Translations under genes and position numbers: made by a program
The notes under the pieces: generated by a model
Database searches by the model: none
What the model was told of the DNA's origin: nothing
What the model saw: only the letters and a program-made list of their open reading frames with translations
Virus record (IMG/VR): IMGVR_UViG_3300031625_000625
Span: 1 to 22,326 of that record
From: a virus
Direction: 5' to 3' (one strand)
DNA length: 22,326 nt
Shown here: positions 1 to 2,621 of the stretch, one piece after another
How positions within the stretch are numbered: the stretch's first letter is position 1
Layout of the letters: each line of letters opens with the position of its first letter

Positions 1-107
1 AAGGTTTCAGATTCGGCATTTGTCATATTCCATTGAAAAATGGCATCTGTTCTCACGGGATTTTGTTCCATGTAGTATTTACCGATTGATAGTCAAGACC
101 TTCCCAT

Positions 108-150
108 CTTACAGAAAAAATTCAATGCGCCAAGCCCATTTTTCTGTAAG
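108..150 (+). other. Perfect 12-bp hairpin in the gene-free leader region
   Basis: Bases 108-119 (CTTACAGAAAAA) are exactly complementary to 139-150, with a 19-base loop. No T-run follows on either strand at the position a terminator would need, so this is more likely an RNA structural element. The loop contains ATGCGCC at 125-131, which is complementary to GGCGCAT at 672-678. A smaller hairpin sits just upstream at 30-43: CCATT, a GAAA tetraloop, then AATGG. Confidence 0.6.
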
Positions 151-210
151 AGGTATTGCAGTAAGTAAAGAAATATGCTAAACTTCCTGATAACTGAAAT
201 ACACAGGTAA

Positions 211-564
211 GGAGAAACCAATTCTCCCTCAGAATTTTCTCTGGCTAAGGTAAACGCCTAGATTGAGTTTTGATGTAAAAAACCATGGGAGCCGGGTAGG
301 TCTTACTGGCAACCTGCACAAGACGAAGGATCTTGTGTTGTCTCGGGCCGAGGTGTGCCTTAAATCCCTCACCACTGATGCTATGGATTGTTGTGTGGCT
401 TAAAAAGCGACTTGGTGGTAGTCACAACAAGGGATTAGGTTAGCAGGCCATATATTCGAAGTTTACCATTGACGCAGCCGGGAGAGGGTTGTGATCAAGT
501 GCATCTTAGGTATTTTTTGTACCTTTCGATGTTCAAGGTAAATGCTGCGCTTCGAGTCACCCCT
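211..564 (+). ncRNA. Candidate large structured non-coding RNA upstream of the DNA polymerase
   Basis: The whole of 1-704 has no credible reading frame, which is unusual in this compact genome, but it is rich in complementary segments. Those seen are 211-216 with 222-227; 249-255 with 461-467 (GGTAAAC/GTTTACC), closing a multi-branched region; 291-295 with 306-310; 316-323 with 331-338; 363-368 with 431-436 stacked directly on 388-395 with 423-430 (TTGTTGTG/CACAACAA); 473-478 with 544-549 (CGCAGC/GCTGCG); and 501-505 with 528-532 enclosing 508-512 with 520-524. Segments 486-494 and 557-563 can also pair and would cross the 473-478 helix, suggesting a pseudoknot. All helices are read on the plus strand, but orientation and ends are not proven. 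I could not match it to RNase P, tmRNA or a group I intron core. Large phage RNAs such as GOLLD or ROOL are alternatives that I cannot test by eye. Confidence 0.5.
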
Positions 565-629
565 TATTACTTTTTGACTTAAAGTTGTAGTAATTACTTT
601 TACTTAGATCATTAACCATAGCATCCCTT

Positions 630-678
630 ATGCGCCGACATTTCGACAAAGGTTTTTTGGAAAGAGAGATAGGCGCAT
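630..678 (+). promoter_or_regulatory. Hairpin in the leader of the DNA polymerase gene
   Basis: ATGCGCC at 630-636 is exactly complementary to GGCGCAT at 672-678, 27 bases before the polymerase start codon. The same ATGCGCC also lies in the loop of the hairpin at 108-150, so the 672-678 arm has two possible partners. No T-run follows, so this is not a terminator. It could control translation of the polymerase, whose start codon has only a weak ribosome-binding site. Confidence 0.4.
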
Positions 679-704
679 TTGAGTGTTTCGGTTAGTATCG
701 GGAC

Positions 705-2015
705 ATGAACATGTACGACACATCATGGCAATTAGCGGATCTCCTCGAAGGTCAAAAATCGATCTTCATGAGGACCGAGCCAGAGGTGCCGGATTTTACA
801 GATCGTTCATCATTTAGGATTTTGGTGTGGAGCTTGAAACAAAAGTTAGAAATCGAAGTAGACTCAAATAACATTGCATCTGTGATGAGTTTATTTAACG
901 GAACTCTCTTTAACAAAGATCGAGTTGACCGTCTTTATGTTTGGGGCATAAAATCTCTTTACACATATCTCAGGGCATTCAATCCAAAATTTGTAAAGCC
1001 GACTGTGAACATCCTTGATCTCAAGATCATAGAAAGTTTTCAGGGAGTAAGAAAAAATCGCCCAGAAAATGCAGTTGAGGCCATAAATAGGATGAAGCTT
1101 GCAGTCCAGCACAAAAACTGGCAGAAGCTTTACACGACGATTCACTTACCGTTGGCTCTCCGGGTACTACCCGCAATAGAGACAACTCCATTACTTGATG
1201 AAATATCAAGGAAACCTGTATATCCTTACTATGAAATCGAAGGACAGACAAATGGGCGTTTGAATTGTCTTAAGAAATATTCCAATAGTTATCTGCCCCA
1301 CAACATGGGACCAGATGTAAGAGAATCATTGAAACCAAAAGGGGACGATAAGCGTCTTTGTACTGCTGACTTTAAGTCATGTGAAGTTGCGGTTTTACAA
1401 TGGTTGTCTGGAGATGAACAAATTAAGAAAATCTTAGACTCTGGTGAAGACCTTCACCGAGCAATTTATGAAATTGTCACTGGAGATAAATGTGACACAG
1501 ATAAGAAAAGAAACATATCAAAGAAGATGTTCCTTCCGGTGATGTATGGATGCGGACCTAAAGGACTCGCTGCAAACCTCGACGTGGGTGCGTCCGTAGG
1601 GGCAGAGTTATTCCAAAGGATTAGAAGCAACTTCCCTACGGCCACTCATTTTATGCTTGAAAAACAAAGAGATGCAAAGCATGGAGTGGTTACAGATTAC
1701 TTTGGTAGACCAAGAAAATTCCCAGAAGGAGAAGCCTACCGATTCAGAAATACATTCGTGCAAGCCGTGGCCGCAACCGTCTGTCAGGAAAAGCTAATTG
1801 CTTTATGGAAATCCCTTGACGGTGAGACGGCACGGCTTGCTTTTTCTATACATGATGGCTACGGAATCGTTTGTGATATCCCCACTGCCAAACAAACATA
1901 TCAAACAGTAAAAGATACCTTGGAAAGCGAATCGGTGCTGTGCCCCGGTTTGTCTATGAAAGTGGCAATTAAGTTCGGGCTTAAGTTGTCGAATATGATA
2001 ACATTATGGAAATGA
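705..2015 (+). CDS. Family A DNA polymerase, polymerase domain without a functional exonuclease
   Basis: This 436-residue protein is a DNA-dependent DNA polymerase of the Pol I family, expected to copy the phage genome. The three catalytic motifs are visible. Motif A reads TADFKSCEVAVLQWLSGD, with the metal-binding Asp. Motif B is in the KKRNISKKMFLPVMYG segment (fingers helix). Motif C reads SIHDGYG. The usual HDE of motif C is HDG here, so the conserved Glu is missing. GRLNCLKKYSNSYLPHNM matches the GRLSSxxPNLQNIP region. The first 130 residues resemble a decayed 3'-5' exonuclease fold with no DxE pair. Only about 30 residues separate IETTP from GRLN, where Pol I has a thumb of more than 100. 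An in-frame stop (693-695) just upstream fixes the start. The ribosome-binding site is weak. The next gene follows after 18 bases. Confidence 0.9.
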   Translation: MNMYDTSWQLADLLEGQKSIFMRTEPEVPDFTDRSSFRILVWSLKQKLEIEVDSNNIASVMSLFNGTLFNKDRVDRLYVWGIKSLYTYLRAFNPKFVKPTVNILDLKIIESFQGVRKNRPENAVEAINRMKLAVQHKNWQKLYTTIHLPLALRVLPAIETTPLLDEISRKPVYPYYEIEGQTNGRLNCLKKYSNSYLPHNMGPDVRESLKPKGDDKRLCTADFKSCEVAVLQWLSGDEQIKKILDSGEDLHRAIYEIVTGDKCDTDKKRNISKKMFLPVMYGCGPKGLAANLDVGASVGAELFQRIRSNFPTATHFMLEKQRDAKHGVVTDYFGRPRKFPEGEAYRFRNTFVQAVAATVCQEKLIALWKSLDGETARLAFSIHDGYGIVCDIPTAKQTYQTVKDTLESESVLCPGLSMKVAIKFGLKLSNMITLWK

Positions 2016-2033: not shown

Positions 2034-2621
2034 TTGAAAAAATTGAAAAAGAAGAAAACCTTAGAAACAATTGTAAGCAAGTTTCCAATCACGGAAGAAG
2101 AGTATGCTGTTTTGGATAAGAAGTTTGGAAATTTGGCCCACTATGCTGCGTGGCAACTGAAGAAGAAAAATTCACAGAACAATCACACCAACGACCCAGA
2201 TGATGATGTTCAGGAGATGCGAATAGCTTTAATGAGAGCAGGAAGCTATTACAAAAGGCAAACTTACATTGAAGCTTGCTTTGAAGCCATGAACAATCAC
2301 GCTAAAGAAAAGTTCATTAAGAAGCTTCTTACAGAGCTTGAACAACTTTGGATTGATCGCCGTCGTCATGGTGCTAACCGTCAAAAATTTGGCGAGTTTC
2401 AAGAAGTTATCTTAGACCGGCTGGTCAAGAAGCATGTCCCCAAAAAAGATCGACCTGATCGATCAGCGAGTCTCAGATTCGATGTTAAGTTTTGTACTTA
2501 TGCAAAACAAATTTTGTGGAACAGCCAGAAGAGTTTAGGAAAGAAGATAACTCGTGAGAAAAGTTGGCGAACTGGTCTTGTTAGTTTAAGTGAATTCGAT
2601 TACCTTGGAGTAGCTGTGTAG
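2034..2621 (+). CDS. Possible sigma-70 region-2-like transcription factor
   Basis: This is a basic 195-residue protein. Residues around DDDVQEMRIALMRAGSYYKRQTYIEACFEAM resemble sigma region 2.1-2.3 (DLIQEGxIGLxxA...TYA), as in the small T4 late sigma factor gp55. A second stretch near the C-terminus, FDVKFCTYAKQILWNSQKSLGKKI, again resembles the FSTYAxxxIRxxI helix of region 2. No region 4 helix-turn-helix is evident, as in gp55. If correct, it would direct host RNA polymerase to phage promoters. The start is TTG at 2034, chosen because AGGAGG lies at 2024-2029; a second in-frame TTG is at 2043. It is co-transcribed with the polymerase and followed by a strong terminator. The family assignment is inference from short motifs and could be wrong. 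Confidence 0.5.
   Translation: MKKLKKKKTLETIVSKFPITEEEYAVLDKKFGNLAHYAAWQLKKKNSQNNHTNDPDDDVQEMRIALMRAGSYYKRQTYIEACFEAMNNHAKEKFIKKLLTELEQLWIDRRRHGANRQKFGEFQEVILDRLVKKHVPKKDRPDRSASLRFDVKFCTYAKQILWNSQKSLGKKITREKSWRTGLVSLSEFDYLGVAV

Follow-up and report, generated by a model that had tools for sequence, protein, structure and literature searches.

A predicted structured RNA with a covarying pseudoknot beside the DNA polymerase gene of related phages

To our knowledge, long structured RNAs of phages are few, and the best known of them, GOLLD and ROOL, are without an assigned function; assembly into a homo-oligomeric cage made of RNA only is characteristic of both. GOLLD, as described in PMC12286853, is an ornate noncoding RNA of unknown function that occurs in phages and prophages, often exceeds 800 nt, and is often located near tRNA islands. 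ROOL is described in the same source as a phage and prophage RNA, also of unknown function, that contains pseudoknots, measures 659 nt in a solved example, and is likewise often found near tRNA islands (PMC12286853). OLE RNA, of about 600 nt, occurs mostly in Bacillota according to the abstract of PMC12054373. Here, we describe a locus at which a predicted long RNA lies beside a phage DNA polymerase gene; our searches of open-licence papers listed none whose title or opening abstract lines describe such an RNA.

The stretch of viral DNA that we analyzed (the window; IMGVR_UViG_3300031625_000625, 22,326 nt) begins with 704 nucleotides that the original prediction took to be free of genes. This description holds for positions 72-704, a 633-nt gap between divergent genes that contains no open reading frame (ORF) of at least 60 amino acids (aa), but not for positions 1-71. 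The record IMGVR_UViG_3300027847_002824, whose polymerase is identical to that of the window in a contig scan and differs by one residue in a second comparison, extends 2,508 bases further to the left, and these additional bases identify positions 1-71 (minus strand) as the 5' end, 23 codons long, of a gene for a 246-aa protein; this gene lies outside the RNA and is complete in a near-identical contig (L001:1839-2579, minus strand). The divergent protein has relatives in L002 and L004 (27-28% identity), and ORFs beside it in these loci (L002:2663-3745 and L004:3247-4182) encode proteins that we take to resemble aspartate carbamoyltransferase. On the other side of the gap, positions 705-2015 (plus strand) encode a 436-aa family-A DNA polymerase (Pfam PF00476, E 4.7e-25; DNA polymerase in PHROG). 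Adjoining it is a gene for a 193-195-aa protein (2034-2618) that matched neither Pfam nor PHROG, is 53-54% identical in L002 and L004, and has relatives in at least 125 viral stretches, making it a useful marker of this phage lineage. By eye, we also noted a near-perfect inverted repeat, ttacagaaaaa...tttttctgtaa (~107-148), between the divergent gene and the predicted RNA promoter, whose loop carries atgcgccaag, with similar strings in L007, L027, and L018, and, 3' of the 195-aa gene (~2648-2690), a hairpin that resembles a terminator, ccccgtatagcacttgttatacgggg with a run of T after it. ARAGORN detected no tRNA or tmRNA in the 22-kb window.

A blastn search with window positions 1-704 against 50,697 phage records gave no match. 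Viral contigs were scanned with the neighboring protein (window 2040-2618), keeping the best 80 of 125 stretches, and further relatives, L108 among them, came from a scan with a polymerase alignment; polymerase queries of one or two sequences gave two loci each. A DNA-pattern scan found 17 stretches, comprising 10 known contigs, one further copy (L091), and six others without polymerase homology (L090, L093, L094, L099, L100, and L101). When genome contigs were scanned with the 193-aa neighbor protein, none of the 257 pattern matches was a relative, and the host was therefore not found. The distance from the divergent gene to the polymerase ranged from 534 to 2,399 nt across 49 distinct gap sequences, a count that includes near-identical copies and excludes three copies of the window (L001, L003, and L005) and loci with no detected divergent gene. 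Comparison of the gaps with one another by blastn revealed conserved blocks within several subgroups. Subgroup 1 consists of the window, L006, L007, L008, L009, L010, L013, L015, L027, and L108, and its polymerases are 47-56% identical to that of the window. In several loci, other genes occupy part of the gap. In L022, a gene matching membrane dipeptidase M19 (L022:2638-3927, minus strand; Pfam E 2.2e-42) separates the divergent gene from the RNA site. Five loci, L031, L035, L054, L068, and L081, have a plus-strand ORF of 294-295 aa on the divergent-gene side of the RNA; the copy in L031, the one searched of the five, had no Pfam match.

Comparison within subgroup 1 indicates, from covariation, conserved motifs, and model matches, that the plus strand at ~191-625 (both ends predicted) very probably encodes a structured RNA of ~435 nt, common to the window and nine relatives. 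A long RNA closed by a long-range helix had been proposed for the whole of 1-704; compensatory changes, a predicted promoter, and the place of the element agree with such an RNA, over this smaller extent. Folding of one sequence is weak evidence here: the 704 nt gave z scores of -2.73 on the plus strand and -1.93 on the minus strand (20 shuffles each). The comparative evidence is strong. We aligned ten sequences with MAFFT, without reference to structure, over the core (alignment A6) and at full length (A8, window 185-633), and counted, in these and in alignment A10 described below, those pairs backed by at least three hand-drawn sequences. Changes on both sides occurred at 22 of 30 pairs in A6, compared with 13.0 +/- 1.9 in shuffles, a null that ignores kinship among the sequences, and with 6-9 in slid controls, a comparison that leans in favor of the pairs, which were chosen from helices hand-drawn on the same sequences. 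In A8, such changes occurred at 40 of 52 proposed pairs (22.5 +/- 2.7 in shuffles; 11-16 slid), the cell count was 83 (35.5 +/- 5.0 in shuffles; 12-24 slid), and 80.7% of cells were paired, compared with 32-43% when slid. One possibility is that the region is degenerate intergenic DNA with chance complementarity, and the unremarkable folding of positions 240-580 (z of -0.66) would fit this idea; the controls for A6, A8, A10, and the pseudoknot contradict it, and we regard it as extremely improbable.

The first domain of the putative RNA would be closed by the long-range helix P1 (249-255/461-467, plus strand, as are all elements below). This helix, listed in the original prediction, covaries: both sides change at all seven pairs in A8, and 49 of 63 cells are paired, compared with 23 and 26 of 63 after a shift of one position. 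Tested alone in each sequence, P1 was not significant (p 0.04-0.70), and a free search picked another helix in 5 of 10. Inside this domain lie hairpin P2 (292-309; stem 292-295/306-309), with the conserved loop GURRGUCUUA, all cells paired (100%), and both-side changes at three of four pairs, and hairpin P3 (314-340; 318-323/331-336 on an outer 314-317/337-340), with both-side changes at 8 of 10. The earlier version of this second hairpin, 316-323/331-338, is present in the window and was hand-drawn at the same place in relatives; its A8 columns are blurred (38 of 76 cells paired; 22 and 26 of 76 slid). A motif AAACC...GGGURRGUCUU is found on the plus strand ~350-540 nt 5' of the polymerase in two subgroups. 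Two further motifs serve as anchors, RAGGUNNNCC (350-359), with a similar motif in the second subgroup, and GGUUAGNAGG (438-447), which closes helix P5; each is present with minor variants in 10/10 subgroup 1 sequences, and their spacing is 85-95 nt in every one. P5 pairs a 5' strand at 358-368 (358-360 and 363-368) with a 3' strand at 431-439 (431-436 and 437-439), as judged from hand-drawn helices and A8 pair counts, with both-side changes at seven of nine pairs and 64-75% of cells paired. The portion 363-368/431-436, proposed earlier as a helix, is likewise present in the window and drawn by hand at the same place in relatives, and again its A8 columns are blurred, with 22 of 60 cells paired, no better than when slid (17 of 51 and 21 of 53).

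A 3' domain would be closed by a second long-range helix, P9, between 492-496 and 607-611. Here, 40 of 47 cells were paired (9 of 48 and 17 of 46 when slid), the 5' strand had 84% of cells paired, and both sides changed at 6 of 10 pairs. The helix is short in the window and reaches 8-12 bp in most relatives; it was recovered in 7 of 10 sequences, the exceptions being the window, L008, and L013. Its 3' strand, placed from motifs and A8 pair counts, is followed by the conserved motif AACCAWRG (614-620). Immediately 5' of P9 is hairpin P8 (475-491; 475-479/487-491), hand-drawn in 9 of 10 and outside the statistical counts. Two pairings originally predicted for this part of the sequence found no support. 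For 473-478/544-549, 18 of 49 cells were paired, compared with 17 of 49 in each slid control; for a possible crossing pair, 486-494/557-563, the count was 31 or 35 of 70 in two registers, and part of the claimed strand, 492-496, pairs with 607-611 instead.

The crossing pair in this RNA is a different one, formed by stems Pa (371-375/415-419, or in an equivalent register 370-374/413-417) and Pb (388-395/423-430). Pb had already been predicted as a helix, and it recurs here as the second stem of an H-type pseudoknot. Both sides change at four of six pairs in Pa and five of six in Pb, and a small hairpin, P6 (398-408; 398-401/405-408), hand-drawn in 8 of 10, lies within the pseudoknot. In A8, most relatives have Pb out of register by one: 41 of 76 cells were paired as aligned, and a slide of -1 raised this to 53 of 76. 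In all ten subgroup 1 sequences, two perfect stems cross one another between the anchors, and their letters differ wholly between phages; in L009, CCCGGC/GCCGGG is combined with TGCTCGT/ACGAGCA, and in L013, CTCATC/GATGAG is combined with GTCCAA/TTGGAC. An alignment-free search identified the pseudoknot in 11/11 phages, including L018, which took no part in model building, compared with 0.7-3.4% of sequences resampled to first order rather than by exact dinucleotide shuffling, and 6 of 90 hybrids that join halves of two phages. The loop limit in this search was 30 (at 25, L027 was missed), and in L006-L008, one strand of the pseudoknot had been shifted by one base after the helices were first drawn by hand.

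Covariation alone does not separate an RNA from hairpins in DNA, and with an inverted repeat nearby (~107-148), it might be argued that the structure acts at the DNA level as a protein-binding or single-stranded-DNA element. We consider this very doubtful. A pseudoknot and helices of long range are features expected of RNA, the predicted promoter is placed strand specifically, and G-U pairs outnumber A-C mismatches on the plus strand (47 and 25 in A8; 24 and 15 in A10), a modest excess.

The RNA is likely a separate transcript, as judged from sequence features on either side of it. A predicted sigma-70-like promoter, TTGCAG-N17-TAAACT (156-184, plus strand), would initiate transcription near position 191, toward the polymerase gene. 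Within 190 nt 5' of the core motif, 10/10 subgroup 1 phages have a single match to TTGn3-N17-TAn3T, with a chance expectation of 2-12% in each. The polymerase gene would be transcribed from its own -10 box, predicted as TAGTAT (693-698, plus strand), 6 nt before the ATG; TAnnnT is found 6-9 nt 5' of the polymerase ATG in 9/10 subgroup 1 phages, and at 5-10 nt in 11 of 40 other loci. A TATAAT-like string 5' of the polymerase in some relatives, such as L006 and L008, was rejected as a promoter, since it coincides with P9 (3' strand). Of 11 subgroup 2 sequences, 9 have the strict promoter pattern, at uneven distances; in L035, it reads TTGACA-N17-TATAAT. The RNA match usually ends 60-360 nt before the polymerase start, and in 26 of 28 cases, no ORF of at least 75 aa intervenes. 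On the far side of the RNA, such ORFs are present in 10 of 28.

This arrangement, on the same strand and directly 5' of the polymerase gene, is also what would be expected of a cis-acting leader of the polymerase mRNA, resembling a riboswitch or an attenuator, an alternative already named in the original prediction. The -10 box in 9/10 phages would make the polymerase mRNA leaderless, and ORFs stand between the RNA and the polymerase in two of the 28 cases, L040 (a 93-aa ORF on the opposite strand) and L018 (plus-strand ORFs); these ORFs had no Pfam match. Given a predicted promoter of its own in 10/10 and a separate predicted polymerase -10 box in 9/10, the RNA is probably not a leader, and we rate that reading as decidedly unlikely. 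Promoters and ORF layout together favor an RNA with its own transcript that is linked to the polymerase.

A second subgroup, represented by ten sequences in alignment A10, has similar motifs and different helices, and by eye, the same pseudoknot was not seen. Both-side changes occurred at 21 of 35 pairs (13.3 +/- 2.0 in shuffles; 5-12 slid), and the count of further pair types was not above that of shuffles (162 of 500). An apparent likeness of this subgroup to 16S rRNA motifs was rejected, as no rRNA match was found in L050:4100-4690 at E up to 10. Given the different helices and a pseudoknot not seen here, what links this subgroup to subgroup 1 is its motifs, its place, and weak cross-matches. 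Two covariance models were built, R1 and R2. R2 meets L008 at its RNA (E 0.53), and both models match L067 at one and the same place, R1 with E 0.051 and R2 with E 4.6e-9.

Run over 64 sources (696,361 bases) at a cutoff of E 0.01, R1 matched 15 and R2 matched 18. Once copies are merged, we reckon that these 33 sources represent 27 phages; 20 of them contributed to building the models, and L018, L040, L028, L057, L067, L074, and L081 were outside training. All 33 matches are upstream of the polymerase and on its strand. At the same cutoff, 31 of 64 sources, some with long noncoding gaps, gave no match by either model, and matches below the threshold were seen at the correct place in L022 (R1, E 0.17) and L002 (R2, E 0.27). 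The gaps of L021, L024, L026, and L029 form a third group with conserved blocks, matched by neither R1 nor R2, and perhaps hold a further version of the RNA. Records of 458,813, 381,443, and 101,533 bases each carry the RNA as a single copy, at the polymerase. Taken together, these searches suggest that the RNA is very probably conserved across many relatives of this phage, including very large ones.

What might such an RNA do? The fold is conserved, on one strand and at one place, and from that place our best guess is a stand-alone RNA that serves replication; we infer its transcription, its ends, its action in trans, and its link to replication. Specifically, we think it rather probable that this is an independently transcribed, structured noncoding RNA of ~435 nt that would work in its folded state during replication, probably together with a protein from the replication module of the phage or from the host. 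Its fixed position beside the polymerase gene might alternatively reflect a role in cis. ColE1 RNA II and the transcript-primed origins of some phages provide an analogy for one such role, in which the transcript would form an R-loop or a primer and the folded RNA would be needed in cis to start DNA synthesis. A replication origin of this kind, also raised in the original prediction, would account for a single-copy RNA in a divergent promoter region beside replication genes, adjoining the polymerase in 26 of 28 cases, and for the presence of a protein gene at the site instead in four phages. An unsystematic look identified neither an iteron array nor an AT-rich unwinding element, and L018 and L040 have genes between the RNA and the polymerase. 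In the 458,813-base record, the cumulative GC skew is flat before and rising after a minimum at ~57 kb, 19 kb from the RNA (76.4 kb). We consider an origin unlikely and continue to prefer a separate RNA acting with a protein.

The original prediction held that lack of covariation in relatives, or a protein gene at this place, would speak against an RNA. The relatives covary, and in four phages the gap is taken up by a gene encoding a 387-394-aa protein. One of the four is LR756511.1 (L004:4841-6004), a named relative from an uncultured phage with a genome of 595,163 bases, and the others are at L030:3476-4660, L033:3499-4662, and L076:3483-4658. R1 and R2 had no match in these four whole records, a result to be weighed against the many noncoding gaps that both models also miss. 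The protein was not found in eight other records searched, has no Pfam match, and gave one weak PHROG match, to an RNA polymerase (E 0.12). It may contain motifs reminiscent of polymerase motifs A and C; a profile comparison with the polymerase gave no support (probability 0.6%), and its predicted structure is poor (mean pLDDT 53). As a tentative and rather improbable extension, the new RNA class may be a polymerase- or origin-bound part of the replication apparatus that was swapped for this protein in the branch of LR756511.1, L030, L033, and L076. If true, this would be an exchange of RNA for protein at one locus, in a lineage that includes very large phages. The branch offers a natural comparison, and an RNA class that is tied to the locus of a DNA polymerase and combines a predicted promoter with a pseudoknot that covaries is a definite target for expression analysis, probing, and knockout.

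Comparison with known families is consistent with a novel RNA, as had been predicted. Searches of Rfam 15, which includes GOLLD, ROOL, OLE, group I introns, RNase P, and tmRNA, gave no match at curated thresholds in the window or in 12 loci. With the cutoff relaxed to E 10, positions 1-720 gave one match, at the level of chance (15.8 bits; threshold, 70), and L050:4100-4690 gave none, and at E up to 1, seven loci gave two matches, both below threshold and outside the RNA. Group I introns interrupt genes; this RNA lies between two divergent genes, an arrangement kept in relatives. The kind, a long structured phage RNA, is known, and the family is very likely new and absent from Rfam.

The likeness to GOLLD and ROOL is one of analogy. 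GOLLD is also a long, ornate noncoding RNA of phages, whereas the RNA described here is ~435 nt long and lies beside a DNA polymerase gene, with no tRNA in the window and no Rfam match. ROOL shares with it a phage setting and a pseudoknot, and differs in the same absence of tRNAs (over 22 kb) and of an Rfam match. OLE is likewise a large structured RNA of unresolved function, and it too differs in that no Rfam match was obtained here. Primer RNAs of the ColE1 RNA II type are structured, promoter driven, and sited at a replication locus; they would be alike only if the origin reading were right. Unlike the RNAs of tRNA islands, the RNA described here has a replication neighborhood that supplies a testable hypothesis for its role.
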